A stretch of 64,000 nucleotides of DNA from Corynebacterium terpenotabidum Y-11 (lineage in GTDB: Bacteria; Actinomycetota; Actinomycetes; Mycobacteriales; Mycobacteriaceae): assembly GCF_000418365.1 (NCBI RefSeq), contig NC_021663.1, positions 124,001 to 188,000 of the forward strand. Reading direction: 5' to 3'. Under the pieces are notes generated by a model. It had not been told where the DNA came from. It saw only the letters and a list, made by a program, of their open reading frames with translations, and did no database searches. Below, piece by piece: positions 13,431-33,493 of the stretch (positions are counted from its first letter, which is position 1; each line of letters starts with the position of its first letter). The translations under genes were made by a program, and so were the position numbers.

Positions 13431-13468
13431 TGTGCCACGGGCGCGGGTGCGACCCCGCCACGCACTGC

Positions 13469-13474
13469 TAGAAT
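13469..13474 (+). promoter_or_regulatory. Extended -10 promoter element of the TPR-like gene
   Basis: TAGAAT is preceded by TGC, giving an extended -10 (TGCTAGAAT). It lies 59 nt before the ATG at 13534, with a GGAGGGG ribosome-binding site in between. Confidence 0.5.
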
Positions 13475-13533
13475 CCCCTGTTATTGCGGGGTTTTCCGCG
13501 TCACCGACCACCTCTGACGGAGGGGATTGCCAC

Positions 13534-14880: not shown

Positions 14881-15975
14881 TCAGGCGCCGGCGGCCTCGA
14901 ACACCAGGTGTTTCGAGAGGATCGAGCGCACCGGGTCGAGCACCCGGTAGGGGGCGATACCGTGACGGGACAGCTGTTCCCCGCGGGGGGATTCACCGAG
15001 GGCGGAGACTGCGAAATACTGCCACCGGTCCGAGGAGACCTGCTGCCCACCGCGCCAGCCACCGGCGTGGGGCTGGTTCGGCGTCCACCCGTAGTCCTGT
15101 CCGATGATGTTCACCAGCCGGTCGGCTTCCATATAACGCAGCAGTGACTCGATCTCCATGTGCAGCAGCAACTGGTCGTCCGGGTCGTATCTCCATCCGG
15201 AGTCACGTCGGAAGGCGGCACCGTTGTTGCCCATGATCTGGGCCCACCGACTGCCGGAGGCCTCCGAGAGCTTCTGCAGGGTGTCGAATTTCGAGATGGT
15301 CACCGCGAGCTTCGGTCGGGCCGTTTCGAGGATGCGGAAGAGGTTGCGCAGGACATCCTCCGGGTCGCCCCCGGTGAGACTCTGGGCCGGGATGATGCCT
15401 TTGAGGTAGGTACGGATCTGGGCGACGCGCAGCGGATCGAAGAGGAAGATGATGAGGTCGGCGTGCTGGAAGAAGGCCAGGTTGCTGGTATCCGCCGGTG
15501 GATTCTCCAGGTCTTCCCCGGCGACGTCCCGGAAGACGAGGTAGTTCATCCGGTTCACACCGTCCGGTCCGGTCCAGCGTCCCAGGGAGAAAATCAGCGG
15601 GTCACGCTGGTAGGCGTCGTTCGCGGAGGCTGGCGGGGTGGCCGGCATGTTCCGCATCTCCTGGTACAGGGGCTCCTCGTAGTGGCTGCGGTAGCGGTCG
15701 AGGGTGGAGTTGTCTGCGGCCTCGACAACACGGCCGAACTGTCCGGCGAGCTCTTCAAGCTGCTTGATCATCACCGCGGTGTAGAGGCTCTTGCCGGAGG
15801 CGCGTGCCCCGGCCATCGCCACGCAGTGGGCGCGGGCGTCGGCCCAGCCGTGCGGCAGGGGCCGACCGTCGGCGGAGGTCGTCGCACCGGGCGGCAGTGG
15901 AGCGAAAGTGTAGGGGTCCTTGACCTGGTGGGACAGGGAGTTGGTGGGGTACTGGTTCATCGACGGTCCGGTCAC
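14881..15975 (-). CDS. P-loop GTPase-like protein of the tubulin-like/VWA system
   Basis: This 364-residue cytoplasmic protein has a Walker A/G1 motif GARASGKS (residues 56-63), a G3-type DVAGED (150-155) following a hydrophobic strand, ADLIIFLFDP as a Walker-B-like strand, and a G4-like TISKFD (226-231). SALGES near residue 330 could be G5. The motif spacing fits the divergent TRAFAC-type GTPases found with VWA and tubulin-like partners, not Ras or Era types. The GTG start at 15973-15975 overlaps the preceding stop (GTGA), with GGAGGTGG upstream; ATG 15960 is an alternative. It is the last gene of the operon. It probably acts as the regulatory switch of the system. Confidence 0.75.
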   Translation of the reverse strand: MTGPSMNQYPTNSLSHQVKDPYTFAPLPPGATTSADGRPLPHGWADARAHCVAMAGARASGKSLYTAVMIKQLEELAGQFGRVVEAADNSTLDRYRSHYEEPLYQEMRNMPATPPASANDAYQRDPLIFSLGRWTGPDGVNRMNYLVFRDVAGEDLENPPADTSNLAFFQHADLIIFLFDPLRVAQIRTYLKGIIPAQSLTGGDPEDVLRNLFRILETARPKLAVTISKFDTLQKLSEASGSRWAQIMGNNGAAFRRDSGWRYDPDDQLLLHMEIESLLRYMEADRLVNIIGQDYGWTPNQPHAGGWRGGQQVSSDRWQYFAVSALGESPRGEQLSRHGIAPYRVLDPVRSILSKHLVFEAAGA

Positions 15976-16952
15976 CGGGCCACCTCCGCGGGGTGGACGT
16001 CGGCGCGGAGGACCCCGGCGATGGTGTCAGCCACCGGAGCGAAGGTGGTGGCGTCCCCCTCGGCGAGGGGCCCGGCGAATTCCGGGGTGACGGGGACGAC
16101 GCCGGTGGTGGCGGTCCGGACCGGGGAGGTGGCGTAGAGCTGCTCTTCGTCGGACGCACCGGGGCCGACGACGAGGAGCAGGGAGTGGGAGGTGTCCGAG
16201 ACCATCGCGCGGACCGGAGTGGCGGTGAGGTGGACGGTGAGAGTCTCAGGATCCGTGTTCCGGGCCAGGGTGGTGGTGCCGACCCGGGTGCGGTCAGCCT
16301 CGGCGGCCTCGGCCAGCAGGTTCTCCAGTCCGGCGAGGGAGCGTTGCCCCAGAGGTCCGGCCGAGGTGGAGATGTCGATGAGATCCGTACCGAGGACGGT
16401 GGCGATGCCTTGGGTGACGGTGACCGCGGCGGCGAGGGTGTCGGGGGTGAGTACCCGGTGGAAGGTGGCACCGGTGTCGGCGACGAGGTGCAGGCGCCGG
16501 AGTCCCGGTGCGCCGGTGAGCCGGGTCCGCAGGGCGGAGGAGACGGCCATCACCGGACGTGAGACGTCGGCGGCGACGGAGGAGCCGAAGGCGTTGAGGG
16601 TGAGCGAGTCCCCGGTGCGCACCACGGAGCCGAGGGTCTTTACCGGGACGCCGCCGATGTGGACGACGGGGAACTGGACGGTCGCCTCACCGGAGCGGGT
16701 GACGGTCACCTGGACCGACTGGTCGATACCGAAGTCGGCACCGTCGGGGGAGCTGACTGAGATGGTCGCCGATTCCGGTACCTCGGTGACGATGGCGAGG
16801 GTGTTGTTCGGAGCGGTGACGCGGACGCCGTCCCCGGAGACGGCGAGCCGCAGGTTCGCTGCGGCACCGCCGACGGGAAAGACCTCGATTTTGAGCATGC
16901 CCGTGGCGCCGAGGGCGTGGGAGTCACCGTCGTTGAGGGTGATGGTGTGCAT
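15972..16952 (-). CDS. Operon protein of unknown function, beta-rich
   Basis: The 326-residue product starts with a ~110-residue region of alternating strands (HTITLNDGDSHALG, LRLAVSGDGVRVTAPNNTLAIV). A ~180-residue alpha/beta region follows, with RLHLVADTGATFHRVLTP and SLLLVVGPGASDEEQ. The latter could be a VWA-like or other Rossmannoid fold without an evident metal site; this is only an impression. There is no signal or membrane helix. It overlaps the GTPase gene by 4 nt and follows the GAP1-like gene by 37 nt, so it is surely co-transcribed. Confidence 0.65.
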   Translation of the reverse strand: MHTITLNDGDSHALGATGMLKIEVFPVGGAAANLRLAVSGDGVRVTAPNNTLAIVTEVPESATISVSSPDGADFGIDQSVQVTVTRSGEATVQFPVVHIGGVPVKTLGSVVRTGDSLTLNAFGSSVAADVSRPVMAVSSALRTRLTGAPGLRRLHLVADTGATFHRVLTPDTLAAAVTVTQGIATVLGTDLIDISTSAGPLGQRSLAGLENLLAEAAEADRTRVGTTTLARNTDPETLTVHLTATPVRAMVSDTSHSLLLVVGPGASDEEQLYATSPVRTATTGVVPVTPEFAGPLAEGDATTFAPVADTIAGVLRADVHPAEVAR

Positions 16953-16989
16953 GGGGGTTCAGACTCCTCTCGGGAACTGGACGGGGTTG

Positions 16990-18831
16990 TCAGCGTTGCC
17001 GGCCGGGGTGGCCAGGGTTGGGCGGGATGCGCTGCGGTTGCCGGTCGGCGTAGGGCTGGTAGGCGGACGGGAATGGTTGATGCTGGGGGATCTGCTGTAC
17101 GGGATGGGCGGCGGGATTCGGTGGCGGTGCCTGCCCGTCCGGCCGGATCGGCCTGACGTCGGTGCGTCGGCGGAACACGTCCTCAGCCATCGCCCGCAGG
17201 GTCGGATCCGTCAGTGCGGTGAGATCGGGAACCCCCGGGTCGTGGCAACCGTGGGTTACCGAGTAACTGGTGGCGTCCGCGATGAGTGCTTCCCGATCCT
17301 CCGGGAACAGGGTGGTCAGCGTCCACGGCGCGAATAGTGGGCGATCGGGGCGGTTCCTGTCGACGGGGATGAATCCGTAGGACAAGAGCGCGAGGATCCG
17401 GACCTGCAGGGTGTGCCCGAGCTCGGTGCTGGGGTCCAGACACAGGTAGACGCTCCAGTGGGAGAGCTGCGCTTCCCGCCACCGTTGGAAGGCCTGTCGG
17501 GACTCGGGGGACATGTCCCGGAATTCAGGAACGACCCCGTTGATGTTGGTGTTCCATGCGATGAAGTCCGCGTCCCGGATGAAGGCCACGTCATCGGGGG
17601 TTAGCTGGACCAGTGCCGGGTAGGTGCCGGGCGGGGTCCGGCGTTCCGTCCGCCGGTCCTGCGGCTCCGGGGCTACGTCCGGGGTGACGACCGGTGGTGT
17701 CGTCGCAGGCTCCGGAGCAGTGATGCCGGAGAAGGGGTTGCCGAAGCCGGCGGGGGACCCGCCCGCCGGGCGGGACGGTTCACCGCCGAAGGACGGGGCC
17801 GTTACCGGCGGCGTCACCGGCGTCACCGGCGGAGTCGACGGTGCGGTCCCGGATGATGCGGCGCCCCATCCGGCATCGGTCACGGTCTGCCACCCGGCCG
17901 GTGCAGTATCCGGTGTTGTCGGCTCAGATGGGACTGCCGAGTCCGCCGACGGCAGCAGCTCACCGGTATCGACGATGACGGCGGCGAGGTGGTCTGGAAG
18001 CCGGTCGCGTTCCCGGGTCGGGACGACCGCAAGGCGGACCCCGGCCGCGAGCACCCCGGCCACGTTCCCGGCCCGCTCATAGGTCGACCAGGTGAAGGGT
18101 CCGCCGGTGAGGACATCCTCCGGCAGGGCGCGAGCGACTGCGGCGACCCACAACGGCCCTTCCACCGGGTCGGCGAGGAGTACCACCGGCCGTCCGTTCA
18201 TCAGCAGTTCGATGAGGACGGCGAGAATCTCCGGACGCGACGCCGGCCCGGAAGGCTCCCGGACGCGACGCAGTTCCGTCGGCAGCGACGTCTGCCCGCC
18301 AGCGTCCTCCGACGGAGCTCCGGCGAGAAAGGCGTCGAGCACCGCATCGGTCATCGACGAGGGGGCGGCACCGGCGTCGAGGGTGGGCAGCGCGGCGGCG
18401 TCCACCTCCACCGAACCGAAGGGGGTGGGCAGCGACGGCGAATACATCCACGCCACCGCGTCGTGTCGGGGCAGGACGCCGGGGTCGCTGACGTGGACGA
18501 GGGTGAAGATGTTGTCCCGGCCGGTGGAGTCCGCCCCGGCCCGGGTGGAGGCGAAGAAGACACCGGTGTCCTCCGCACCGCGCGGCTCCCACGGTGCAGG
18601 CAGCCACGCATAGCGGCGCAGCTGCCGGGCCAGGTCCTCCTCGTCGGGGAACTTCGGCAGTTTGGCGTCGTCCCGGATGCTCTCCGGGGTCTGCGGGGTG
18701 AGCGGGGTGAGTTCGTCGATCCACATCGGTGCGATCTCGCCGGAGGTCTCACCCACACCCCACCCCCCGTGCCGGGTGACGCCGGAGCCGCTGTCGCGGG
18801 TGAAGGAGGCGTAGCTGAAGGAGCCGGACAT
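16990..18831 (-). CDS. Probable GTPase-associated protein (GAP1-like), proline-rich linker
   Basis: The 613-residue protein has an N-terminal domain (residues 1-~270) whose opening (SYASFTRD, GGWGVGETSGEI) and later GPFTWSTYER resemble the N-terminal and middle regions of GTPase-associated protein 1 families. I cannot confirm this by search. Residues ~300-400 form a Pro/Thr/Gly-rich linker containing NPFSGI. A C-terminal helical domain (~400-560) holds many Trp and charged residues. The tail is Pro/Gln-rich. The start is ATG 18829-18831, overlapping the previous stop (TGATG); GTG 18834 is possible. It is likely the partner of the GTPase encoded two genes downstream. Confidence 0.6.
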   Translation of the reverse strand: MSGSFSYASFTRDSGSGVTRHGGWGVGETSGEIAPMWIDELTPLTPQTPESIRDDAKLPKFPDEEDLARQLRRYAWLPAPWEPRGAEDTGVFFASTRAGADSTGRDNIFTLVHVSDPGVLPRHDAVAWMYSPSLPTPFGSVEVDAAALPTLDAGAAPSSMTDAVLDAFLAGAPSEDAGGQTSLPTELRRVREPSGPASRPEILAVLIELLMNGRPVVLLADPVEGPLWVAAVARALPEDVLTGGPFTWSTYERAGNVAGVLAAGVRLAVVPTRERDRLPDHLAAVIVDTGELLPSADSAVPSEPTTPDTAPAGWQTVTDAGWGAASSGTAPSTPPVTPVTPPVTAPSFGGEPSRPAGGSPAGFGNPFSGITAPEPATTPPVVTPDVAPEPQDRRTERRTPPGTYPALVQLTPDDVAFIRDADFIAWNTNINGVVPEFRDMSPESRQAFQRWREAQLSHWSVYLCLDPSTELGHTLQVRILALLSYGFIPVDRNRPDRPLFAPWTLTTLFPEDREALIADATSYSVTHGCHDPGVPDLTALTDPTLRAMAEDVFRRRTDVRPIRPDGQAPPPNPAAHPVQQIPQHQPFPSAYQPYADRQPQRIPPNPGHPGRQR

Positions 18832-21158
18832 CACATCATCCTTCCGGTGGTGGGCAGGGCGAGCCGTTGAGCGACAGCGCCCTCGATGACGATCCCGGGG
18901 ATGCTGGCGGCGTGCCAGGTGGAGGCACCGTCATCGGAGGTGGAGTCGACCGTGTCGGCGCTGAGGCTGCCGCCGAATGCCCCGGAGCCGAAGCCGGAGG
19001 ACTGGGTGGACCAGGAGGGCGCGGCATCGGCCACGGTCTGCTCCGGCAGATTGGCATCCACATTGTCGATGAACAGACGCAGGTACCCGCCCTGGAACCC
19101 GGTGTTGTCCACCCACCAGGAGGCGTCCTCGGCGGTGGCCGTGACCAGGCCACTGGCCATGTGGGCCGCCTGCCCGTTCCCGGTGAAGACCTGTGCCGAC
19201 GGGAGGGTGGGCTGGAAGAGGTCGGAACTGATCTGGTTCGGACCGACCGCCTTGAACTTCGAACAGGTGACAGGGTCTCCGTCGTCGATGAACAACGGGA
19301 GGCGGGTGGGATTGTGGATCAACCGGAAGTGCGGGGCATTGGCGTCCGGATAGTCCACCGACCAGATGGTCAGCACTAGCTGGTTGTTCTCCTTCAGCTC
19401 GAGGTTGTACGAATACGAGCGCAGGCCGGGGTACCGGATGACCGTGGGGGTGTCCGCCTTCTTGTCCGTTCCGGCGTACACGGCGACAGGGGTCAGGGTG
19501 ACCGTGTCCCCGGTGGACATGAGGGACAGGCGGACGCCGCCCTGCCGGTTGTACGATGTCTGGTCCAGTCGCAGATGGTCGTTGGTGGTGCGCACGTCGA
19601 TGAGGTCCGCCCCGCCCGGCCAGTCGAAGGTGATGAGCTGGTTGGTGACGCGCTCGATCAGTCGGGGCTCATCGAGGTTGTCCACCTTGTGCAGGACCCG
19701 GCTGTTGCCGACCCAGGCACGCTCCTCGACGATATTCACCGGGGTGGCGTACACCTGGTGCCAGCCAGCCGGCCAGACGGAGCTCTTCGAGACCGTGCTG
19801 CCCGGCTCGTCGGTGTCCTCCACGGTCCATTCCGTGGCACTGAACGCCCGGTCGCGGTCCAGGTGGCCCTTGGCGATCTGCTCGAGCTGCAGTTCCGGGT
19901 CCGGGGGAGTGTCGGTGAGGTAGACCTTGACCGATCCGGTCGGCGGAGCGGTCCACTCCAGGATGATCCGGTCCTCCACACCGTCGTTGTAGGAGTCTGC
20001 GGTGGTCAGCTCCACCTGCTGGATCTCCGCGCTGACCTGCATGGTCTGAGTCGGAGTGGGGTTTCCGCTGCGGGTGGTGCCGCGGAAGGAGACCAGCGGA
20101 GTCAGCGTGTACTCGTAGGTCAGGCCGCGGACGTCGACCCGGTGGGAGAACCCGGAGCGTTCGACCATGCCGTCGGCGAGCATGTTCACCGGGGCGTCGA
20201 GTCGGCCCGAGTACCCCTTGCGGGCGTGGAAGACCCGCACCGTGTCATGGCCGGGGCGGGCGTCCCAGGTGCCGTTGACCGTACCGCCGGACTCCGCGAG
20301 GCGGATATTGTGCGGCGGGAAGATAGCGATGTCCTCACCGAGCAGGAGGGGGGTCTGCGACACCAGTTCCGGAAGCTGGTCCCAGGTGTAGGCCCACACC
20401 ATGTAGTGACGGAAGCCGCTGGTCGGCGGGCGGGTGTCACGGAAGGCGGTGCCGTGGGTGATGACCAGTTCCGTCCCGGCACCGGGTTCCTTGTCGACCT
20501 CGTGGTCGGCGGCGATGACGCGGTACAGGGTGGTTTCCCGGGGACGGCCAGGCAACGGCTTCCAGGTGATGAGGACAGATTCGGTGGTCTCCGGCTCCTG
20601 GTCCTCGGCGCCCCACCTGTCGCCCCGGGCTGCGGTGGTGCTCTCGTAGGTCACCGTCGGCGCGCCGGGGGAGATCAGGCCGTCCGGCGTCGAATAGTCG
20701 TAGGCGGTGTCGCTGGCGGCGAAGATCTGGTGGAAGATTTCGTCGTCCTCGAAGTCAGCGTCATCGATCTCGGTGGAGGACGTGGCGCCACCGAGCAGAA
20801 GTTTGAGCTGGTCGGCGAGGGAGACGGCGGCGGGTTCCTCCGGTGCAGCGGGTGCAGGGTCGGGTGTGGGGACGGCGGCCGGTTCCGCTGCGCCTTCGGT
20901 ATCGGATTCCGTCGCATCGGCGGAGCGGGTGGTGGGAGCCGGGGTGGGCCAGGCTGCGGCGGCCGGGCGCGGTGGACGTCGGCCGGTGAAGATCCCGGCG
21001 ATGACCTCAGCGGTGGCGCGGGCGTCCTTCACCCCGGAGGGGAACTGCGCAAGGACCGCCTCTGAGGTGGGGTTGTCGAGGGCGGCGATCTCCGCGAAGA
21101 CCTCCAACGGGAGGTCCGGGGTACCGGGGGCAAGGGGCTTCTTCTGTGACCAGTTCAT
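18831..21158 (-). CDS. Fibronectin-III-like beta-sandwich protein of the operon
   Basis: The 775-residue product has a short N-terminal helical domain (residues 12-60, LPLEVFAEIAALDNPTSEAV) resembling small adaptor domains. An acidic Pro/Ala linker follows. Successive beta-sandwich-like modules occupy residues ~190-650, with FnIII-like cores such as VLITWKPLPG...YRVIAAD, GTWDARPGHDTVRVFHA, IILEWTAPPTGSVKVYL and ITFDWPGGADLIDV. There is no signal peptide, so the modules should be cytoplasmic. The start is ATG 21156-21158. It follows the 990-aa gene by 13 nt. FnIII-like modules without export suggest a protein-protein scaffold. Confidence 0.6.
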   Translation of the reverse strand: MNWSQKKPLAPGTPDLPLEVFAEIAALDNPTSEAVLAQFPSGVKDARATAEVIAGIFTGRRPPRPAAAAWPTPAPTTRSADATESDTEGAAEPAAVPTPDPAPAAPEEPAAVSLADQLKLLLGGATSSTEIDDADFEDDEIFHQIFAASDTAYDYSTPDGLISPGAPTVTYESTTAARGDRWGAEDQEPETTESVLITWKPLPGRPRETTLYRVIAADHEVDKEPGAGTELVITHGTAFRDTRPPTSGFRHYMVWAYTWDQLPELVSQTPLLLGEDIAIFPPHNIRLAESGGTVNGTWDARPGHDTVRVFHARKGYSGRLDAPVNMLADGMVERSGFSHRVDVRGLTYEYTLTPLVSFRGTTRSGNPTPTQTMQVSAEIQQVELTTADSYNDGVEDRIILEWTAPPTGSVKVYLTDTPPDPELQLEQIAKGHLDRDRAFSATEWTVEDTDEPGSTVSKSSVWPAGWHQVYATPVNIVEERAWVGNSRVLHKVDNLDEPRLIERVTNQLITFDWPGGADLIDVRTTNDHLRLDQTSYNRQGGVRLSLMSTGDTVTLTPVAVYAGTDKKADTPTVIRYPGLRSYSYNLELKENNQLVLTIWSVDYPDANAPHFRLIHNPTRLPLFIDDGDPVTCSKFKAVGPNQISSDLFQPTLPSAQVFTGNGQAAHMASGLVTATAEDASWWVDNTGFQGGYLRLFIDNVDANLPEQTVADAAPSWSTQSSGFGSGAFGGSLSADTVDSTSDDGASTWHAASIPGIVIEGAVAQRLALPTTGRMM

Positions 21159-21171
21159 GTGGGTGGTGTCT

Positions 21172-24144
21172 CTAGATCAGGGAATCCCAGTCGGGGAGGT
21201 CCGGGGAGGCGGGGGACGCCGGCCCGGAGGGGGAGCCGAAGGGGTTCTGGTCGGGTGCGGAACGGTGCCCCGGCTGCGCAGCGCCGGGAGTCGGCGTGTC
21301 GAACGTCGGTGTGTCGAACGTCGGCGGAGCGAAGGCCGGGGGAATGAAGGTCGGCGCATCGGATGAGGGGGCATCGAAGGTCGGTGGTTCGAACACCGGC
21401 AGGGGGGAGTCCACCGGCACGTGCCCGAGATTGTCCCGCCCGGTGTCCAGCCCGAGGTACTTCAGCTCGGTTGCCTGGCCGAACTGCACCAGTGTCGCCG
21501 ACCGGGTCAGCGTGCCGGGGGCGTCCACCGGGGCGGAACCCCATCCGGACGCCGCCGCCGGGGCGTCATCGCGGTCCGCGCTGAGATCCAGCCGGCAGAC
21601 CGCGGCGTCCATCGAGGTGGCACCTTCGTTCACCGCAATGGCGGAGACCGCGTCCTGCAGGAAGCTGCCGGACGCCGGATTCTCGCCCCGCAATGTCGAC
21701 AGGAAACGCTCGGTGGTGGTGGAGGTACGGCGGCCATCGTGGAAGAACTCGACCGTGCTGATGCGCTGGGACAGTTGCCGGGCGATGGACGGCGTCGCGA
21801 CGACCTCTGACCACCGTTCCCGGGAGTGGTCCCGGTTGTCCATCTCCGGGCCGACCGCCCACCGGCTCAACTTGTCGAGACCGGAGCCGGTCCCGGTGCC
21901 GGACTGGCCGGCCAGCTGCGTCATCGTCGGCGAGTGTTCGCCGGTGAGGTGCTCCCGGTTGGCGGTGGTGTCCGCCAGCAGTCGGTTGAAGGCGTTCTCG
22001 GCCCAGTGCGGCGGGAAGATTTCCTGGCGCACCGTGTTCACCAGCGGACCGAGGTCGTCGTCCGGGATGGTCGCCTGACCGATACCGGTGGACAGCGGCA
22101 GGCCCGATGACGGGGATTCCAGCCCGACGGCGGTGGAGGTGTCCCGGCCCAGCGGGCGGGAGATCGCACGGCCCAGCAACGTCGACCAGCTCAACAACTG
22201 CTGGTAGGCGCCGAGCTGCCGGTACAGGTTCTCCATGCCCTGCTGCACGTTGTCCTGGGTGATCTTGAGGTTGCGTTGCAGCAGATGGACCTGCTGCAGA
22301 TACGCCTCGACCCCTCGTCTGGCTTTCGCATAGGAGGCCATGTGGATGCCCATGAAGATCAGCGTGCCGAGCACGAACCACAGCACCGCCCAGTGCCAGG
22401 GGATGCCCTTGAAGAACGTCAGCTGCCACGACGGCATCGCGTGGACGACGACGGACAGCACCATGGCGAGCAGCAGGGCGAATTCGAGACCCAGCAGGAC
22501 CCGGGTGGTGACCTGGTAGTCGCGGTTGAGGCTGCTGGTGTCCCGCGCCTGCAGCTGGGCCAGGCCGGCCGCGTTCGTGTCGAGGCGGTGCACCTGGAAC
22601 TTGAGGTTGTCCAGGGATTCCCCGATGAGCAGCCGCAGTCCGTGCCCGGTGTGCCAGGCGAAACTGCGGGACGCCGTCTCCTTCCACTTGGTGAACTGCT
22701 GCTGCAGCTGCCGGATCGCCGGTTCGCGGGTCTGGCCGGCGACGAAGTTCAGCTTCTGCTCGTAATCCCAGGCCTTGACCGCGTCGAACGGCGGCACCAC
22801 CGCGTCTTCCTGGGAGTACCCGAACTGCTGTCCGAGCAGGGGATGGAAGCCGCGGAAGGAGTCGTCGACGTCCGGGACGGACATCCAGCCCTGCTCGACG
22901 ATCTTGCGGTTGCCGAAGGCGTCCTTCGGGGTCTCCAGGGCACCCTGCTGCCGCTCCGCCCCGTCAACCAGGGTGAGCGCCACATTGCGGTAGGCGGTCC
23001 ACATGTCCCCCAACTGCGGGGCCTCGCCGACCCGGAGGCCGTGGGCCGCCGCCTGCTGACGGTGCCGTTCGGCGGCCTCGGCCATCCGCTCCAGGTTCAG
23101 GTCCTGGGCCGGGCCGGCTGCCGGGTTGGAGATGATCCGCACCGGGGAATCCGCACCGTACAGGCTGTTCTGCACCTGCTTGTCGAACGAGGACCGGGCA
23201 CTGACCTTCGCCGCCCGGTACCAGCTTGCCGGGGTTCCCAGCCCCTTCGAGAAGTAGTCACGGAGGAAAGCCGTCATCGCCTGGATGCCACTCTTGTGGG
23301 TCGAACCCGGGGTGGCCTCCGGTTGCATCGGGGTCGCCAGCGACCCGTGGTACTGGTGCAGCAGTCGGTGGGCCAGAGCCTCGGGGACTGCGTCCTGGGC
23401 ACCCATGTGGTCAGCCTGGCGTCCGTCCGGGGTGACCGGCTGCGGCAGCCGAGTGCTGATGTCGGTGGCGGTGCGACGCAGCTGGTCCTCGACTGCGGAG
23501 GCGTCGATGGTGCGGTGGTAGGCGCGGGCCAGCCGCACCTTGTAAGCACCACCGGTGGAGATCGGGTGGCCGGAGTCATCGAGCAGGGCGCAGGAATCTG
23601 CGCTGGCCCACAGACCGGTCAATCCGCACAGGGTCGGGGCGGCCACCTTCGCCACCTCCGTCGGGTCCCCGGCCCGCTGGACCGGTGACAGGGGCGAGTC
23701 GGGGGCCTCGGAATCCTCCGGGGCGATGGCGACCGTCGTGGGCCAGGACTGGCTGGGTTCCGGGACCCGGCCACCACGCGGCAGCCGGGGCAGCAGGATG
23801 CGGACCCGCGCCGGTGACGATGACAAGCGGGCCTCGATACTGCCGGTCCAGCGGTCGACGGAGGCCATGTCGAGGCCGGCGGTGGTGTCGTCCTCAATGT
23901 CGAGGGCGATGAGCAGCGGGACGCCGCCGACGGCACGGAGTGCCCGGTCGATGCTGAGGACCTGCTGCCCGTCAGGACCGATTCGCCGCACCGTGGTGCC
24001 CGTCTCCGACAGGACCGGGTCGACCCAGGTGAACGGGTCGATCAGCCCGAGGGACGCGAGGTCGGTGAGGTTGCGGCGGATCTGGTCGGCGACGAGACCG
24101 TGGCCGAGGATGATGACATCAGGGGTGGTGGTGTGGATCGACAT
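21172..24144 (-). CDS. Large membrane protein of the tubulin-like/VWA system
   Basis: The 990-residue protein begins with a strand-Gly motif (PDVIILGHGLVADQIRRNL) that could be an alpha/beta fold. Two clear membrane helices lie around residues 555-620 (LLGLEFALLLAMVLSVVVHA and HWAVLWFVLGTLIFMGIHMA). A helical region after them (VEAYLQQVHLLQRNLKITQD) looks coiled-coil. The C-terminal ~80 residues are Pro-rich with repeats of P-x-F-D-(A/T)-P and end NPFGSPSG...PDLPDWDSLI. The start ATG 24142-24144 overlaps the tubulin-like stop by one base. It is probably the membrane anchor that connects the cytoplasmic polymer to the membrane. Confidence 0.65.
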   Translation of the reverse strand: MSIHTTTPDVIILGHGLVADQIRRNLTDLASLGLIDPFTWVDPVLSETGTTVRRIGPDGQQVLSIDRALRAVGGVPLLIALDIEDDTTAGLDMASVDRWTGSIEARLSSSPARVRILLPRLPRGGRVPEPSQSWPTTVAIAPEDSEAPDSPLSPVQRAGDPTEVAKVAAPTLCGLTGLWASADSCALLDDSGHPISTGGAYKVRLARAYHRTIDASAVEDQLRRTATDISTRLPQPVTPDGRQADHMGAQDAVPEALAHRLLHQYHGSLATPMQPEATPGSTHKSGIQAMTAFLRDYFSKGLGTPASWYRAAKVSARSSFDKQVQNSLYGADSPVRIISNPAAGPAQDLNLERMAEAAERHRQQAAAHGLRVGEAPQLGDMWTAYRNVALTLVDGAERQQGALETPKDAFGNRKIVEQGWMSVPDVDDSFRGFHPLLGQQFGYSQEDAVVPPFDAVKAWDYEQKLNFVAGQTREPAIRQLQQQFTKWKETASRSFAWHTGHGLRLLIGESLDNLKFQVHRLDTNAAGLAQLQARDTSSLNRDYQVTTRVLLGLEFALLLAMVLSVVVHAMPSWQLTFFKGIPWHWAVLWFVLGTLIFMGIHMASYAKARRGVEAYLQQVHLLQRNLKITQDNVQQGMENLYRQLGAYQQLLSWSTLLGRAISRPLGRDTSTAVGLESPSSGLPLSTGIGQATIPDDDLGPLVNTVRQEIFPPHWAENAFNRLLADTTANREHLTGEHSPTMTQLAGQSGTGTGSGLDKLSRWAVGPEMDNRDHSRERWSEVVATPSIARQLSQRISTVEFFHDGRRTSTTTERFLSTLRGENPASGSFLQDAVSAIAVNEGATSMDAAVCRLDLSADRDDAPAAASGWGSAPVDAPGTLTRSATLVQFGQATELKYLGLDTGRDNLGHVPVDSPLPVFEPPTFDAPSSDAPTFIPPAFAPPTFDTPTFDTPTPGAAQPGHRSAPDQNPFGSPSGPASPASPDLPDWDSLI

Positions 24145-27100
24145 CAGATGAAGTCACCTCCGAAGTCGGGAAGGGCGGGACCGGACGGGGAACTCGGCGC
24201 GGCGAAGGGATCGGCCACGGGAGCGCCGGTGGAGAAGGCGTTCATGGTGGGGTTCTCCGCCCGGTTCTTCGCCGCGTCCAGGTGCTTCTTCAGGGCCCGG
24301 GTCATGTCGCGGACGTCCGGGGCGAAGTCACGGTAGAGAGGCATCGCCGAGGCGTAGCGCCGGTCGGAGACGTCCGCCCAGGGCTTGTCCTGGACCTGGG
24401 ACCCGGGGAGCCCGCCGCTGCCGGGGAGGAAGGTGTCCGCATTCTGTGCCGCATGGTTGAGCTGAGCGGTGAAGATCTCGTAGCGGTCGGCGACGCTGGT
24501 ACCCAGCGGGGCCTGGTCGGGGCGTTCGCCGGTGGTGAGGAAGTCCGCGAGACGGGTGACCACCGGATGGTCGTTCGCACCACCGGTGGGGGACTGGGAG
24601 TGGTTGTCGTAGAGCTCGCGGAGCAGCCGGTAGGGTCGCAGCGACCCGGCGAGCTGACCACGGGCGTCCTTCTCCTGGACGCGGGCGTAGGCCAGCAGCA
24701 CCGATTCGATGACGGCGGGCATCCAGTCCAGTTTCGCCTTCATATCCTGCGGCGGGGTGAGCAGCGGGTGAGGGAAGTCGACCCATTCCCTGGCGGCGTC
24801 ATCGTAGATGTGGGCGCGGGCGGCCGGGGTGCCGTCGCCCTGGATGTGGATCCGGCCGGTCACCGCGCCAAGGAGCCAGCCGGCGACCATGGCCTGGCGT
24901 TCCGCCTCGGACAGGGGCACGGTGGCGCTGATCGGACGAGACCGGCGCAGGGACCAGTAGCCGTCCTGGTTGGTGCGGGAATCCCGGTCCTTGGCGATCG
25001 CCGGGAACAGGGAGCTGAACACCACCGGCGAGTAGTTCGGGTAGGAGCCGAAGACGTCGATGTGACGGACCTTCGATCCGTCGGACATAGCGCCGTCGAG
25101 GGCGTCGGCGGTGGAACCGTCGAGGTTGGTTTTCTGGTTGAGGACCGAGCGCAGGTCCTCCGCGGCGGAGTTGCCCCTGAACGGGATCTCGGAGAAGTTG
25201 AAGTGGAACTCCGTCTCGGTGCCGTGGACCAGGGAGACCATGGAATTGTCGACTGCGGCCAGCGGACGGGCCTGGTCCAGGGCACTGGTGAAGGCGGTGC
25301 GCAGGCGCTGGACGCGGGCGGCGAAGGTCGTGTCGTTGGTGGCCTCGTCCTGGGTCATGTAGCTGCGCAGGTCGGTGCTGATGAACTTCGAGAAGTGGTA
25401 GTCGGGGCGCTGGATCCACAGCCGGGCACGGTTCAGCAGCTGGGCGGGCCGGATCTTGGCGGTGAAAGACCCGGGGCGTGATTCGCGCTCCTCCCCACCG
25501 GTGTTGCGGGAGGAGACGAGGTGACGGGAGACCCAGCCGGCGCGGTTGCCGCCGGCGCGGGTGTGCCCGGCGACGGCGAGGGTGTCCTCCGGGGCCTTCT
25601 CGGCACCGTTGGTATCCCACCGGCCGCGGATGACGGCCTGGGCGGCGACGCGGGAGGCTTCCTTGGCGTCGAAGATCTCCGGGTCGGAGACGCGGACATC
25701 AGCGACGATGTGGGTGACGAAATCGGCGGGGAAGTGATCGACATCGGAGATGAGGATCTCGTTGGCGGAGCCGCGGAAGCGTTCGCTGATCATCTCCTCG
25801 CGGTCCTTCGGCCAGGCCACCGGGTCATCGGTGGCCACATCGGCAAGGTTGACCGAGACGTTCTTCTTCTTGTCGGCGGCCTCCAGGTCGGCGTGCGCGT
25901 CGTGGAGCTCACGTTCCAGCCGGGACAGGGCGTTGTTGATGAAGTCCTCGAGAACCCGGGACAGGTAGTCGGCGACGCGGATGGCGAAGTACTCGGTGAA
26001 CTGCGACCGGTACTGGGCGGCGATGTTGTCGAGGATCTGCCCGGACTGGGTGACCGCTCCGTTGCCCGTCAGCGGCTGAAGCATCTGGTCGATCGGCGGA
26101 GTGATGACTGCGGGGCTGCGTCCCTGCGAGGAACGCACGAGCATTTCCATCGGGCCGACGAGCCGCTGCCGGATGTCTTCCCCGAGCCGGTCGATGACCT
26201 TCTCGACGAAGGGCAGGCCGGTGGTGGACAGGTACTCCTCGCAGGTGGTGACGACCTGGTCGCAGAACTGATCGGCGAAGGCGTGGACGGCACCGTAGGC
26301 GGCGTCGTCGAGCTGACGGTGGATCTCCATGACCGCGGCACGGTCGGACAGTCGGGAGCGGACCAGCGCACCCCAGTCGGAGGCCTTCATCCCGTCGGCG
26401 GCGGGCAGTCGCTGCCGGAGCCACTGGGTGGACTGCTGTGCGGCCGGCATGGCGTAGTTCTGGCCGAAGACCTGGCCGATCCACCCGGCGGTGGTGGCCT
26501 GGTTCGGCTCCGAGTAGAGGATCTGGGAACCGATCCACACCTTGTCGAGGATGGCGGGGTAGCGCTCGATGAGCCGCTTCTGCAGCTGCTCCTCACCGGT
26601 GTCGGTGCTCAGCGGGTCCATGTGCCCGCGCAGGATCCGGTCGAAGGCGGTGCGGGCGAGCCGCTGGGCGGAGTATTCGGCGTAGCGGTCGCGTCCCATT
26701 GACAGCTGGGCGTAGCCCATCGACCCCCAGGGCATGTCGCCCCAGGGCACGAGGGCGCTGTCCGCCCAGCCGAGGAAGTCACGGTTGGCGGCGGTGGCGC
26801 CGGTGTTGCCCAGGGAGTAGGCGACGAAGGAGTCCGCGGACTTCTCCGAGGTCATCAGGGCGGCGAGGGCGCGGCCGAGACCCCGGTAGACAGTGTTCGG
26901 GTTGCCGTCGCCGAAGCGGGCACCGGTCGCACCCATCCGACCGCCGACGGGGAACAGCCGGGCGAAGGTGTTGCCGGAACTCTCGGCGTTGACGCCGAGT
27001 GCCTTGAAGAGGGCGGAGTCCGATTCGGTGGCGGCACCGGTCTGGGTGGCGACGGCCTCACCGAACATGGCCAGGGCATTGGGCCAGGCGCCGACCATGG

Positions 27101-27779
27101 CTTCCGCCGGGAGGTTCTCGAAGACTTCCGGGGTGGCCATGAACACGCCGGTGTGTTCCGGCTTCGCATTGGGCAGCGTGGAGAGAATCCGGCAGACGTC
27201 GAGGAACATCGACGCGCCAGCGCCGCCGGCCATCGACGAGATGACGAGGATGACGGGGGTGGAATCCACCGCGGAGCTCTGGTGCCCGGTGATCCGGTAG
27301 TTGAGTTCGTTGAGCTCGGTGATCGTCGGGGATTCCTCGAGGATGTCCATCGCGGACTTGAGTTCCTCACGGATCCGGGAGACGGACTGCAGGGTCAGCA
27401 TGCGGCCCAGACCACGGAACTGTCCGGCACCGTCGGAGACCGGGGTGCTGATCGCCTCGGGGTGACGCGGCGCCCAGGTGGCGATTTCGCCGAGGGCCTT
27501 CCTGCCGCCGAGGGTCATCGACAGGCCGGCGTCGAAGGTCTTGTACTGCTGCTTCGAACCGATGCCGACGTAGCGTCCGCCGTTTTCCTGGACATTGCCG
27601 AGCCCGTCGGGGCCCTTCTCCGGGGCGACGGGGACATCAATGCTGACGAACTGCCACGCCTTCGGCAGTGTGGTGAGTGTCGGATCGAACGCCCGCAAGT
27701 GTGCCTTGAGCTGGTCGATCATGTAGGCCTGGGTCTTGGCTCCGGAACCGCCGCAACCGACGACGAGGAACTTCTTCAC
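24144..27779 (-). CDS. Tubulin/FtsZ-like protein (Tubulin_2 type)
   Basis: The 1211-residue protein begins MKKFLVVGCGGSGAKT. This is the first strand and Gly-rich loop of the tubulin/FtsZ GTPase fold. The diagnostic nucleotide-phosphate loop appears at residues 185-190 as GGAGAS, within VILVISSMAGGAGASMFLDV, where FtsZ has GGGTGTG. The remaining ~900 residues are mostly helical, with coiled-coil-like parts around 600-680, and end in a Pro-rich tail (DPFAAPSSPSGPALPDFGGDFI in two overlapping pieces). Ordinary FtsZ is about 400-450 residues, so this is a very long, distinct family. The start is GTG 27777-27779 with AGGAG upstream. It is the likely polymer-forming or switch core of the operon. 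Confidence 0.85.
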   Translation of the reverse strand: MKKFLVVGCGGSGAKTQAYMIDQLKAHLRAFDPTLTTLPKAWQFVSIDVPVAPEKGPDGLGNVQENGGRYVGIGSKQQYKTFDAGLSMTLGGRKALGEIATWAPRHPEAISTPVSDGAGQFRGLGRMLTLQSVSRIREELKSAMDILEESPTITELNELNYRITGHQSSAVDSTPVILVISSMAGGAGASMFLDVCRILSTLPNAKPEHTGVFMATPEVFENLPAEAMVGAWPNALAMFGEAVATQTGAATESDSALFKALGVNAESSGNTFARLFPVGGRMGATGARFGDGNPNTVYRGLGRALAALMTSEKSADSFVAYSLGNTGATAANRDFLGWADSALVPWGDMPWGSMGYAQLSMGRDRYAEYSAQRLARTAFDRILRGHMDPLSTDTGEEQLQKRLIERYPAILDKVWIGSQILYSEPNQATTAGWIGQVFGQNYAMPAAQQSTQWLRQRLPAADGMKASDWGALVRSRLSDRAAVMEIHRQLDDAAYGAVHAFADQFCDQVVTTCEEYLSTTGLPFVEKVIDRLGEDIRQRLVGPMEMLVRSSQGRSPAVITPPIDQMLQPLTGNGAVTQSGQILDNIAAQYRSQFTEYFAIRVADYLSRVLEDFINNALSRLERELHDAHADLEAADKKKNVSVNLADVATDDPVAWPKDREEMISERFRGSANEILISDVDHFPADFVTHIVADVRVSDPEIFDAKEASRVAAQAVIRGRWDTNGAEKAPEDTLAVAGHTRAGGNRAGWVSRHLVSSRNTGGEERESRPGSFTAKIRPAQLLNRARLWIQRPDYHFSKFISTDLRSYMTQDEATNDTTFAARVQRLRTAFTSALDQARPLAAVDNSMVSLVHGTETEFHFNFSEIPFRGNSAAEDLRSVLNQKTNLDGSTADALDGAMSDGSKVRHIDVFGSYPNYSPVVFSSLFPAIAKDRDSRTNQDGYWSLRRSRPISATVPLSEAERQAMVAGWLLGAVTGRIHIQGDGTPAARAHIYDDAAREWVDFPHPLLTPPQDMKAKLDWMPAVIESVLLAYARVQEKDARGQLAGSLRPYRLLRELYDNHSQSPTGGANDHPVVTRLADFLTTGERPDQAPLGTSVADRYEIFTAQLNHAAQNADTFLPGSGGLPGSQVQDKPWADVSDRRYASAMPLYRDFAPDVRDMTRALKKHLDAAKNRAENPTMNAFSTGAPVADPFAAPSSPSGPALPDFGGDFI

Positions 27780-27824
27780 GGTTTCTCCTAAGTAGGCGTG
27801 AGGTGGGGATGTGGTGGTGACGGG

Positions 27825-30527
27825 TCAGCGGCCGAAGGAGCTGGGGGTGCCGGGGCCGGAGCCCCAGGTTCCACCGGTGCCGCCTGCTCCGGGGAAGCCG
27901 CCGCCGGTCGGTCCGGACTGCCCGCCGAAGGAGGTGGGGCCACCGGTGGTCGGTGGGAAACCGGTGGTCGGTGGGTATCCGTCGCCGCCGGGGAAACCGG
28001 ATCCCGGGTAGTTCTCCTGGGCAACGGTCGGGACGGCGTTCCCCTTCCCCTTCCTGCCGCGGCGCGTCGTACCGGGGCCGGGGACCGGGGTCGCGGCAAG
28101 ACGTTCCAGCAGCTCCGGGGTGTCGGTACCGATCTTTCCGGCGAGTTCGGAGACGCGTCCCTCGGTGGTGAATTCATCGACGGCGAGGACGACCTCACCG
28201 TGGGTCGGGTCACCGGGGGTACCGAGCACGAACCAGTGGTTGTGCACCGCCAGCGGCAGTCGTGCTGCCGTCCCGACCTGCTGTCCTTCGTCGGAGATCG
28301 ACGGGGCGGGGGCGTCCACCACGGCGAGCGGTGCGGTCAGCGGGTTCTTCCCCAGCTTCACACGCACCGGGACTCCGGCGAGGTTCACCTCGCGGCCGGA
28401 GGCGACGGTGCGCCCGGAGCCGAGGAGTTCGTCGTAGCCGATGCGGAAGTCACCACCGGTGTCGGTACGCAGGAGCCGGCCACGTTCGACGGCGACGGGA
28501 ATGCGCACCGCGTGGATACCGGGGGAGGACGGGATCCGACCGGTGATCGCCTTCATGATGTACAGCACGGCCAGCGGGATGAGGATCGCCAACAGGAGCA
28601 CACCGATCAGGGCACCGATGAATACGCCGGTGTTGACCGGGGCAGTCATGTTGCCGGACAAGGGCACGTCCACGTCGGATTCGGTCTCACCGTCATCGGA
28701 GACGAGATGGACCTGCGGGGTGACGGAGATCCGTCCGTCGGCCAGGTCGGAGGTTTTCAGGGTGACGGGGAGGACGCCTTCTTCACCCTCGTCGAGTTCC
28801 AGCGCAGACGCTGCGTCGGCATAGTCGGAGCTAATCTCTACGGTTCCGACCCCGTCCGGCAGGGCGACACCGTCGTCTCCGGAGGAGAGCTCGGTGGAGT
28901 TGAGCCACACCGAGCCCGGTCCGGTGACCGGGATCTCGATGGTGGTCTCCGTCGAGTCGATGCTCAGGTCGGCACTGCCCAAGGTAGGCATGTTCACCGG
29001 GGTGACGGTCACCGCGAAGTCCACCGTGACCGGGCTGAGCTGGGTGCCGGGAGCGTTGTCCGCAGCCTTCGTGGTGATATCGGCGCGGAAGGCGATCCGG
29101 CCAGACGTCGCTTCGGTGATCTTGTCGAGGGAGAAGGCGACCGGGGTGCCGTCCGCGGCGGACTGCTGGCCCAGCTCCACATCGGTACCGTCGCTGCTGG
29201 TGAATGTTGCGGTGAGCAGGGCATCTCCGTCGAGCTGGCGGGGTTCACCGTTCTTATCGACGAGGGTGGCGTGGAGCTCGGCGTCCGACTTCAGGCCGGT
29301 GGTCTGACTGTCAGTCAGTTCGTCGACCTGCACCGACAGGCCCGGAGCGAGGGTGACCCGGACCTTGTAGCTGTCGTCGTCGGCGGTGGGGGCGTCGTAA
29401 CCGAAGGACCATTCACCGGCCCAGTCCCCGCCCGCCGGCAGGCTGAGTTCGGCGGTGACCGCACCGTTGACCACACCGGACTCCGGGGCGACGTGGATCT
29501 GTGCGTCCCCGACAGTGGACGCCTCGGCATCCAGGCTGACCTGCTGACCGCCGGGCGCGGTGAGTACCGGGGTGACCTGGCCGTCGATGCTGCTGGTCGG
29601 CAGGGCGGAGAGACGGACCGTGTCGATCGAGTTGTCGAGGGTGAACTTCGTCGGCTCCTTCATCGACAGGGTGGCGTCCACACTGTTGGAGGTGGGGATG
29701 AAGCTACGGAACGCGGCGAGCAGCCCGGAGGGGTCGGTGCCAGCGTCGAAGAAGGCGCCGTTAGGGGTGCCACCGCCGCAGGTACCCTCCGCCATCTCGG
29801 TGAGCAGTTCGCGGGGGCTGTCGGACTCGTCCGTGGGGATGAGGCCGACAGTGAAGAAGTGGACGCCGGAGTTCCGCAGCGCGACCAGGGGGCTGTCCGC
29901 GCGGCACACGGAGGCGGCGGCCTCGTCGTCGTCGACCCCGGGGGCGGTGACCTTACCGTCGGAGAAGAACAGGACCGCCTGGCAGTCGGACTGCTTCCCG
30001 TCGGTCGTCGGCGCGCCGGCGAATTCGCGGGACGCCCCGGCCAGGGCATCCCCGTAGTTGGTGTACATATCGGCGTTGCGGGCGTTGAAGCCGGAGATGG
30101 CGCTCTCGAGTTTGTCGGCGTCCTCCCCCACGTTGACCCAGTCACCGTAGTCGCCGGTGGCATTGTGGTATCCCTCGCCGAAGCCAGCGAGTTTGACGTT
30201 GATGTCCGCCCCCAGGTCGGTGGCATGGGTGCTGAGCTGCTGGACGAGGTCGCGGGTCGCGTCGACCCGGACATTGTCCGGGTCGGTCGCGGTCTTATCG
30301 TCGAAGCCCTTGAGGGAGGCCGACTGATCGAGGATCAGGAGAATGTTCGCCGACTTCGTCGCGGCGATGCAACTTCCGAGGGCGTTGATGTTGTTCTGCC
30401 CGTCCTCGGAGATCCCCGTCGTCTGGGCCGCGGCAGGGGAGGCGCCGAGCAGGGCGGCGCCGGCGAGCAGGACAGTGGTGCCGAGGGCGGACGCGATGCG
30501 TCCGACGCGGGATTGTGTGCTGGTCAT
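27825..30527 (-). CDS. Secreted, membrane-anchored von Willebrand A domain protein
   Basis: The 900-residue protein has a signal peptide (about residues 1-34, LLGASPAAAQ). A VWA domain (~60-290) carries the MIDAS start DQSAS at 67-71 and a later Thr/Asp-containing NYGDALAGA. An extracellular beta-rich region follows (~290-630). A single membrane helix near residue 640 (FIGALIGVLLLAILIPLAVLYI) leads to a ~250-residue cytoplasmic part ending in a Gly/Pro-rich tail. The topology puts the VWA outside and the tail inside. The start is ATG 30525-30527. It lies 8 nt after the first operon gene and 45 nt before the tubulin-like gene. It likely senses or binds an external ligand. Confidence 0.85.
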   Translation of the reverse strand: MTSTQSRVGRIASALGTTVLLAGAALLGASPAAAQTTGISEDGQNNINALGSCIAATKSANILLILDQSASLKGFDDKTATDPDNVRVDATRDLVQQLSTHATDLGADINVKLAGFGEGYHNATGDYGDWVNVGEDADKLESAISGFNARNADMYTNYGDALAGASREFAGAPTTDGKQSDCQAVLFFSDGKVTAPGVDDDEAAASVCRADSPLVALRNSGVHFFTVGLIPTDESDSPRELLTEMAEGTCGGGTPNGAFFDAGTDPSGLLAAFRSFIPTSNSVDATLSMKEPTKFTLDNSIDTVRLSALPTSSIDGQVTPVLTAPGGQQVSLDAEASTVGDAQIHVAPESGVVNGAVTAELSLPAGGDWAGEWSFGYDAPTADDDSYKVRVTLAPGLSVQVDELTDSQTTGLKSDAELHATLVDKNGEPRQLDGDALLTATFTSSDGTDVELGQQSAADGTPVAFSLDKITEATSGRIAFRADITTKAADNAPGTQLSPVTVDFAVTVTPVNMPTLGSADLSIDSTETTIEIPVTGPGSVWLNSTELSSGDDGVALPDGVGTVEISSDYADAASALELDEGEEGVLPVTLKTSDLADGRISVTPQVHLVSDDGETESDVDVPLSGNMTAPVNTGVFIGALIGVLLLAILIPLAVLYIMKAITGRIPSSPGIHAVRIPVAVERGRLLRTDTGGDFRIGYDELLGSGRTVASGREVNLAGVPVRVKLGKNPLTAPLAVVDAPAPSISDEGQQVGTAARLPLAVHNHWFVLGTPGDPTHGEVVLAVDEFTTEGRVSELAGKIGTDTPELLERLAATPVPGPGTTRRGRKGKGNAVPTVAQENYPGSGFPGGDGYPPTTGFPPTTGGPTSFGGQSGPTGGGFPGAGGTGGTWGSGPGTPSSFGR

Positions 30528-30535
30528 CTGCGGTC

Positions 30536-31165
30536 CTACGCTCCCACTGTCTTGCTGATCCACAGGGCGATCTCCACTGCGGTGATGATGACTGCGACAC
30601 ACGCCAGCCCGGCCGAGACCCGGTAGAGGGTTTTCTGAGCCGGGGTGCCGATGTAGAAACTCTCGGCCTGCCGCTTCGTGTCTTTCCCGGTGTGGAGGCC
30701 GAGGAGGATGAAGGTCACGATGCCGGCGAGGACCCAGCCGGCGATGGCGAGGTAGTGGAAGAGGTCGTCGGTGGCCGATCCGGTGAGCGGGGCGGCGATA
30801 CCGAGGAGGAGCCCGAGGACCGCGGCAGCGGTGGCGGCGGCGATGAATGCCCAGGGGCCGGTGACCGGGGTGAGGGACGCCGTGGGGGCGCCGGAAGTGA
30901 GGTCGGTGGGGCCCGGGGCGGCGTTGAAGCCGCCGGTCGGTCCGCTGGCGGGCGGGCCGAAGGTCACCGGGGTGGGTGCGGCTGACGGGGCCGGGGAGGT
31001 GAAGCCGCCGGGGCTGCCGCCGAAGGGGGAGGAGCCGAATCCGGAGGTGTTCCTGGGCTGCTGACCCGACTGAGTGGAAGGTCCGGGGACGATATGTCGA
31101 CCGCTCGAGTCCGCACCCCAGGAGGGGCCGGGCCCGGTTGCTCCGTTATGGAAGGGGTTTGTCAC
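30536..31165 (-). CDS. Proline/glycine-rich three-helix membrane protein, first gene of the operon
   Basis: The 209-residue product has a ~95-residue cytoplasm-like N-terminal region rich in Pro, Gly and Ser (starting TNPFHNG). Three membrane helices follow: AFIAAATAAAVLGLLLGIAAPL, YLAIAGWVLAGIVTFILLGL and VSAGLACVAVIITAVEIALW. A short loop between the last two holds RQAESFYIGTPAQKT. The GTG start at 31163-31165 has an excellent AAGGAGGT 5 nt upstream. No known family is evident. It probably forms the membrane base with the VWA protein. Confidence 0.7.
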   Translation of the reverse strand: MTNPFHNGATGPGPSWGADSSGRHIVPGPSTQSGQQPRNTSGFGSSPFGGSPGGFTSPAPSAAPTPVTFGPPASGPTGGFNAAPGPTDLTSGAPTASLTPVTGPWAFIAAATAAAVLGLLLGIAAPLTGSATDDLFHYLAIAGWVLAGIVTFILLGLHTGKDTKRQAESFYIGTPAQKTLYRVSAGLACVAVIITAVEIALWISKTVGA

Positions 31166-32487: not shown

Positions 32488-32499
32488 GGGATATCTCCT

Positions 32500-33414: not shown

Positions 33415-33420
33415 GCGACA

Positions 33421-33426: not shown

Positions 33427-33493
33427 CCCCGAGGTAGCCGCCGGATGGGAAAAGTACGGGAGTGGAACGGGGTGTCGCGAGTGGAACCGGGGC

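Follow-up and report, generated by a model that had tools for sequence, protein, structure and literature searches.

An operon of eight genes in Corynebacterium terpenotabidum Y-11 is the subject of this article. It lies in a 64,000-nucleotide (nt) stretch of contig NC_021663.1 (positions 124,001 to 188,000), which we call the window and from which all coordinates below are counted. An original prediction, made from the sequence alone, had seen eight same-strand genes at 14881–31165, mostly overlapping or no more than 45 nt apart, among them a tubulin-like protein, an exported vWA protein and a GTPase. The coordinates of the open reading frames (ORFs) agree: eight of them fill this part of the reverse strand, in a single direction of transcription (Table 1). 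The annotated 67-nt overlap between genes 1 and 2 is gone if gene 2 begins at an internal ATG (residue 26, position 30527), which precedes the signal peptide and leaves 8 nt between the two genes. From gene 2 to gene 8 the spacing runs 45 nt, a 1-nt overlap, 13 nt, a 4-nt overlap, 37 nt and a 4-nt overlap; with the 30527 start all intergenic gaps are at most 45 nt, as had been claimed. ARAGORN also called a tRNA-Leu inside the operon (16897–16978), which we dropped because Rfam at gathering score finds only a tRNA-Ser at 36757.

Proteins of the operon

Few of the proteins announce themselves. Pfam gives no match above cut-off for genes 1, 2, 4, 5 and 7, PADLOC and NCBIfam match none of the eight, PHROGs offered nothing useful for the five proteins searched, and a sequence search of the PDB with profiles of genes 3, 4, 5 and 7 and the sequence of gene 8 returned no convincing match. 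The clear exception is gene 3 (TUB), the 1211-residue protein in which the original prediction had picked out tubulin/FtsZ loops. Those loops are real. Residues 5–379 match the family Tubulin_2 (PF13809, E 9.7e-41), and across 47 aligned TUB sequences the T1 loop (G8-C-G-G-S-G) is kept at 90% or more and the T4 loop (G185-G-x-G-A-S) is invariant. Profile and fold searches both give a tubulin-fold match. In the predicted structure a GTP-binding N-terminal half (~1–390) is followed by a helical insertion (~395–800), a second tubulin half (~845–1036) and a disordered tail, so that sequence and model together show the tubulin fold of gene 3 to be complete, though interrupted, and to carry the GTP loops. 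A TUB profile found no solved structure among PDB sequences. The one named locus found belongs to a Corynebacterium metagenome-assembled genome, where TUB residues 1–1211 are matched with 86% identity in the best segment, and a protein database search places C. variabile among the closest TUB relatives. Hydropathy marks a weak hydrophobic segment at 175–193 of TUB and a single one at 202–221 of gene 6, both of which we take to be buried strands.

Gene 4 (MEM990) is probably a second tubulin fold, degenerate and anchored in the membrane. Its predicted structure has probable tubulin-fold parts at ~7–280 and ~660–905, separated by an insertion (~286–662) of coiled coil and membrane segments, with a disordered tail at the C-terminal end. 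The usual marks of the Tubulin/FtsZ superfamily are missing from its sequence: there is no GGGTG-type GTP loop, and hhalign of whole profiles puts the probability of similarity to TUB at 0.1–0.4 percent. No tubulin family appears among the matches of 22 gene 4 members, and no chain named tubulin among the 50 Foldseek matches listed, which do include several doublet-microtubule chains of unstated identity at E of at least 0.5. Gene 4 might be no tubulin at all, simply a coiled-coil membrane anchor with the same docking peptide as TUB, its VIA match reflecting a common Rossmann-like arrangement; we think this rather unlikely. At the distant actinobacterial Tubulin_2 loci L111, L112, L114, L116 and L118 the gene that follows TUB encodes at least two mid-protein hydrophobic segments (one in L115), and acidic-Trp tails end this gene in L111 (NPW), L112 (DPW), L115 (DLW), L116 (ELW) and L118 (DLW). 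It is a possible counterpart of gene 4, and hhalign detects no sequence homology between the two.

Gene 2 (VWA) is the exported vWA protein that had been foreseen, with the start of its metal ion-dependent adhesion site (MIDAS) intact. A signal peptide leads into an extracellular vWA domain with its MIDAS, a membrane helix (652–690), a cytoplasmic part and a Gly/Phe-rich tail. Pfam finds no vWA domain in the window's own protein; PF00092 matches 11 of 19 family members, and the DxSxS motif is kept, D92 and S96 being invariant in the 19. In the PDB the vWA profile has a single weak match (E 0.00017), a chain labelled "secreted protein, hemolysin". Both the tail of gene 2 (from 27828) and the start of gene 1 (at 31165) are rich in Phe, Gly, Pro and Ser, which account for 60% of the final 90 residues in the former and 58% of the initial 100 in the latter. 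In some relatives these regions form Phe-Gly (FG)-type repeats. The two further membrane proteins of the original prediction would be genes 1 and 4, by the hydropathy given in Table 1.

A probable GTPase-associated protein and a P-loop GTPase-like protein had also been proposed, and Pfam now gives both a name. Gene 6 is a GAP1-N2 protein (PF20013, E 3.3e-7, 30.8 bits against a cut-off of 24) and gene 8 a DO-GTPase2 (PF19993, E 1.3e-6, 28.7 bits against 27). Apart from V/I and S/A exchanges, the motifs of gene 8 are preserved in the 24 aligned sequences listed, with D[VI]AGED in all 24 (the L064 sequence ends before SKFD). Zinc ribbons are not visible in the window's gene 8, whose N-terminus has no cysteine pairs; relatives from other genera have a CPRCF...CPCH motif. 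Of the components that had been left unnamed, genes 7 and 4 can be given probable identities alongside these two. In the family of gene 7 (B326), PF10138 (vWA-TerF-like, best E 0.0012) and PF13519 (VWA_2, best E 0.02) each match two of 18 members. Its MIDAS is of the DxSASM type in many relatives, as against DTGAT in the window, and the metal site has therefore probably been lost in this species. Gene 5 (FN3) had been described as a cytoplasmic FnIII-like protein. It does lack a hydrophobic segment; the FnIII label fares less well, with weak fn3 matches in two of 19 family members (best E 0.0098) and HRDC in one (E 0.085), neither of them in the window's own protein. The low-complexity family Trypan_PARP matches three of the 19, NCBIfam run on gene 5 relatives gave nothing useful, and the best PDB match of the profile, a capsid protein (E 0.0067), we judged unconvincing.

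Table 1. Positions of the operon's genes, their notable parts and nearby features in the window
Feature	Position	Strand	Basis
Gene 1 (S1), probable membrane protein, 209 residues, Gly/Phe/Pro/Ser-rich N-terminus	30536..31165	-	hydropathy: three hydrophobic segments
Gene 2 (VWA), 925-residue ORF	27825..30602, likely true start 30527	-	family Pfam, hydropathy
MIDAS start of gene 2, D92-Q-S-A-S96	30315..30329	-	sequence, family alignment
Gene 3 (TUB), tubulin-like, 1211 residues	24144..27779	-	PF13809, model
C-terminal peptide of TUB, LPDFGGDFI	24147..24173	-	sequence, tail comparison
Gene 4 (MEM990), 990 residues, probable degenerate tubulin fold	21172..24144	-	model
Two membrane helices of gene 4, residues 545–605	22330..22512	-	hydropathy; helical in model
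C-terminal peptide of gene 4, LPDWDSLI, pairs with TUB tail	21175..21198	-	sequence, tail comparison
Gene 5 (FN3), FnIII-like, 775 residues, no hydrophobic segment	18831..21158	-	weak fn3 in family; hydropathy
Gene 6 (GAP1), GAP1-N2 GTPase-associated protein, 614 residues, Pro-rich tail	16990..18834	-	PF20013
Gene 7 (B326), N-terminal beta-type domain and probable TerF-type vWA, 326 residues	15972..16952	-	alignment, family Pfam
Gene 8, DO-GTPase2, 364 residues; P-loop GARASGKS, DVAGEDLE, SKFD	14881..15975	-	PF19993, motifs
Possible ninth gene, convergent, fast-evolving; likely start near internal MTTDL	13279..14853	+	
Genomic island of ~10.4 kb at tRNA-Ser(TGA)	36757-47274		
ORF with AbiEi-like N-terminus, adjoins GlfT1-like gene	11505-12428	-	PADLOC E 5e-8

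A conserved block with shared tails

Tubulin_2 (PF13809) matches 36 of 121 genomes of the genus, the window's included, and PF20013 matches the same 36. PF13809 is found in 24 of 201 genomes sampled from the family, spread over 8 of 31 genera and with three of these genomes giving weak matches only, and in 13 of 246 sampled from the class; the C. glutamicum control genome matches both marker families. From a subset of all matches we fetched 37 loci of ~20 kb each, 26 from Corynebacterium and 11 from other genera, and assigned genes with profiles built from the locus set itself. All eight genes stand in the same order and strand in 36 of the 37 (10 of the 11 from other genera), and so the arrangement is not chance; TUB homologues do keep company with vWA and GTPase genes, as had been supposed. 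The odd one out, L073, is another kind of locus, with two weak Tubulin_2 matches side by side; none of the eight genes is assigned there at E 1e-4, and the TUB profile matches it weakly. Loci of this type occur in three genomes of one other genus. L002 ends with its contig after gene 4, gene 8 of L064 is cut by the end of its stretch, and both gene 6 and gene 7 of L075 are split over two ORFs. Gene 1 has a relative in the same place in 36 of the 37 loci. A second match to its profile, small and mostly weak, follows gene 8 in 11 of the 37 (L051, L052, L054, L055, L057, L059, L074, L075, L076, L077 and L079); none is seen there in the window.

The very ends of TUB and MEM990 resemble each other. 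Their tails are alike within a genome and different between genomes: LPDFGGDFI and LPDWDSLI in the window, DLDDTF and DLDETF in L051, LPGEGEF and LPGTGEF in L043, MPGEDLF twice over in L046, MPGLD and LPGLD in L049. Scored with BLOSUM62 over the last 8 residues, anchored at the end, the tails average 11.62 within loci against −1.60 (standard deviation 1.57) when shuffled (0/2000). No other of the 28 gene pairs rises above z 2.2, and the signal is confined to those last 8 residues. A partial Mantel test controlling for tree distance again ranks TUB–MEM990 highest of the 28 pairs (r 0.21, 0/1000), with VWA–MEM990 the runner-up (r 0.13, 15/1000), and the signal persists when shuffling is kept within clades (0/20,000 overall; 0 in clade A, 9/20,000 in clade B). 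Among named pairs from the protein search, the tails of C. variabile and the Corynebacterium metagenome-assembled genome match and those of C. heidelbergense do not. Codons agree at 47 of the 90 identical tail residues (of 232) against 42.7 expected; it is the peptide and not the DNA that is kept alike, and we rejected recent gene conversion as the source of the shared tails. The FtsZ tails of 16 of these genomes, [VL]PxF in 15, are unlike most of the TUB and MEM990 tails; the window's FtsZ ends in ELPDFL. One common receptor for both tails would be the economical reading of these sequences.

The block also appears to travel as a unit. We built trees of seven genes (gene 1 left out) for 29 representative loci, namely the window and 28 others, after dropping 8 of the 37 as near-identical by shared 4-mers. 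These were quick trees without a mixture model, and splits were compared at a Shimodaira–Hasegawa-like approximate likelihood ratio test value of at least 95. Pairs of operon gene trees contradict each other in 0–2 splits. The rpoB tree contradicts 11 of 18 splits for TUB, 9/16 for MEM990, 7/14 for VWA, 8/15 for FN3, 4/7 for GAP1, 5/12 for B326 and 5/9 for the GTPase. The flanks differ. Over the short distances fetched, no neighbour of the window's block turns up beside another locus apart from a weak ABC match in L057, and of 123 flanking ORFs 64 are singletons. On one side of the window's block Pfam identifies an ABC gene of RfbE type, on the other a glycosyltransferase gene resembling GlfT1 (RfbE, RfbD and GlfT1 being names from the mycobacterial galactan locus). 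Twelve relatives carry RfbE at 80% or above. Six of them have rfbE and glfT1 within ~1.1 kb and no Tubulin_2 match, with 51 nt between the two matches in L143; in the other six the 1.5 kb read contains no GlfT1. Of these latter six, L141 and L142 have other genes at the site, ~16 kb and ~6 kb respectively, and in G011 and G012 the tubulin gene lies elsewhere. Two histories fit, transfer of the block or ancient duplicates with later loss; we favour transfer because flanks differ and the rfbE–glfT1 pair is close-set in relatives. A galactan role, to which the neighbourhood might have pointed, we dropped because in the short flanks fetched the same neighbours are absent from other loci (bar the weak L057 match) and six of the 12 relatives keep the pair without the operon.

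Several features lie close by. The interval that separates the rfbE-like from the glfT1-like gene (window 12510–13655 and 31699–33540) is variable in the genus. We rejected the site as a defence hotspot, since the cargo of L141 and L142 looks metabolic by eye; an L142 ORF that looked AbiEi-like by eye was also set aside, the window's AbiEi-like protein giving no match there. That window ORF (11505–12428) has a MTES_1575 nuclease-like match below cut-off and a weak relative in L125. At the place of the possible ninth gene an opposite-strand ORF is found in 14 of 39 maps, window included. Of the ten ORFs of this kind that were scanned, Pfam finds TPR in two, above cut-off in L078 and below it in L059; the window's own has no TPR match and homology only in L059 and L056. 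TPR domains bind C-terminal peptides, and for that reason the possible ninth gene could be a tail receptor in one clade. The genomic island carries a 19-bp repeat, AAATCCCCCCGTCTCCGCA, at 36825 and 47256, an ISL3 transposase (37439–38791), an AAA_25/HTH gene and a Type ISP / IIG restriction-methyltransferase (38894–42322, PADLOC E 1.2e-269).

A proposed tethered tubulin machine and its rivals

We read the eight genes as a single tubulin-type machine of the GAP1-N2/DO-GTPase kind, tethered to the membrane and regulated by GTP, that serves an accessory response to envelope threat or conflict, and give this a probability of about 0.5. Gene 4 would be the non-GTP-binding, membrane-anchored tubulin partner of gene 3, and in that capacity the two may co-assemble into a heteromeric polymer or patch on the membrane's inner face. 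Both would display the same docking peptide on disordered linkers, as FtsZ does, to one receptor. The outer vWA domain may sense a ligand or envelope damage and trigger the system, and the DO-GTPase–GAP1 pair, together with the cytoplasmic vWA-type gene 7, would gate assembly. We take the function to be accessory, not core division or remodelling, because the block occurs patchily, differs in its neighbours from one species to another and is passed between them. Two observations weigh against the shared tails: the six other-genus loci show no tail signal (8416/20,000), and L053 and L078 are Corynebacterium loci with unmatched tails. A more specific proposal is that actinobacterial FtsZ-like 1 (FtsZl1)/GAP1-N2 systems hide a two-subunit tubulin, with one soluble GTP-binding and one membrane-spanning, non-nucleotide-binding subunit, both split by helical insertions, with tails co-evolving in Corynebacterium, gated by vWA and GTPase–GAP1 proteins and exchanged as a block. 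For this we would offer slightly less than even odds.

Kaur et al. (2020; PMC7159879) predict conflict for systems of this sort, and genes 3, 6 and 8 match the families concerned. The vWA and FnIII proteins would then sense an invader, the DO-GTPase–GAP1 pair set the threshold, and a tubulin superstructure disable cell or invader. The patchy occurrence (36/121), block exchange and differing flanks suit such an anti-invader system, and a Type ISP restriction gene lies 7.7 kb off in a separate island. Yet PADLOC scores 0/8, Pfam finds no toxin or nuclease domain, the gene set is fixed with no swappable effectors, the same-site cargo in two relatives looks metabolic by eye, and our literature search found no phage test of such a system; we hold this version to be unlikely, on a par with gene 4 being no tubulin. 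A little less likely again is a non-polymerising scaffold, in which the tubulin folds act as monomeric GTP sensors coupling the vWA receptor to the DO-GTPase. The large insertions between the halves of both folds could block protofilament contacts, and absence of filaments is also allowed for by Makarova and Koonin (2010; PMC2875224). Least probable to our minds is a housekeeping membrane-remodelling or vesicle machine used by any cell with the operon. The gene context of vWA, GTPase and tubulin-like proteins resembles that in PMC2875224, and two membrane proteins plus an exported vWA protein would be at home in such a machine, but 85 of 121 species of the genus have no Tubulin_2 match, the gene trees conflict with rpoB and the flanks differ; patchiness and exchange speak against a core function.

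What was a vague prediction has become a set of testable questions, thanks to a split but complete tubulin fold, a probable membrane partner and tails that co-vary: do TUB and gene 4 co-assemble, what reads the tail, and does the outer vWA domain act as trigger? The paired tails are a concrete handle on how the system works. Since the C. glutamicum genome matches both marker families, a tractable host is probably at hand.

Comparison with known systems

The kind of system is already known; what makes this one new in part is the probable second tubulin fold and the co-varying tails. A literature search, over texts partly available, found no report of either in the actinobacterial system, nor an experimental study of the operon or of Tubulin_2/FtsZl1 in actinobacteria. 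The original prediction's call of an actinobacterial FtsZ-like 1 (Tubulin_2) system with vWA and GTPase proteins and without OmpA holds on Pfam evidence. It leaned on Makarova and Koonin, which fits, and did not mention Kaur et al., which fits best.

Makarova and Koonin described FtsZl1 with an FtsZ-like N-terminal domain, a coiled coil, vWA and P-loop GTPase neighbours and, in several genomes, an OmpA-type neighbour; they predicted membrane remodelling and could not identify a C-terminal tubulin half. The operon shares the N-terminal domain with T1 and T4, the coiled coil and the vWA and GTPase neighbours. It differs in that none of its eight proteins has a Pfam match to OmpA or to a kinase, and in that the TUB model has a C-terminal tubulin half, moved downstream by the insertion. 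The actinobacterial theme of Kaur et al., which the operon fits, has a single tubulin gene, a GTPase, a GTPase-associated protein and two FnIII proteins, one with HRDC and one a membrane vWA protein; it is predicted to serve conflict and not remodelling, and described as mutually exclusive with VMAP systems. Its DO-GTPase has a conserved Glu in Walker B and usually, though not obligatorily, two N-terminal zinc ribbons. The operon agrees in its tubulin-like protein with helical extension, GAP1-N2, DO-GTPase and membrane vWA protein, and the FnIII protein with HRDC finds weak support in the gene 5 family. It goes beyond that theme in the probable tubulin fold of gene 4, anchored in the membrane, in gene 7 as a likely additional vWA protein and in the co-varying tails of genes 3 and 4, and the usual zinc ribbons are not visible in the window's gene 8.

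Further afield, BtubA/BtubB and eukaryotic alpha/beta tubulin would offer a parallel in having two tubulin-fold subunits with tails on disordered ends. In contrast to those pairs, gene 4 has no GTP loops and does have membrane helices, and genes 3 and 4 both carry insertions of several hundred residues. FtsZ itself shares the disordered linker and the short acidic-hydrophobic peptide that follows it, but its tail is broadly alike in the 16 genomes, whereas those of TUB and MEM990 vary.

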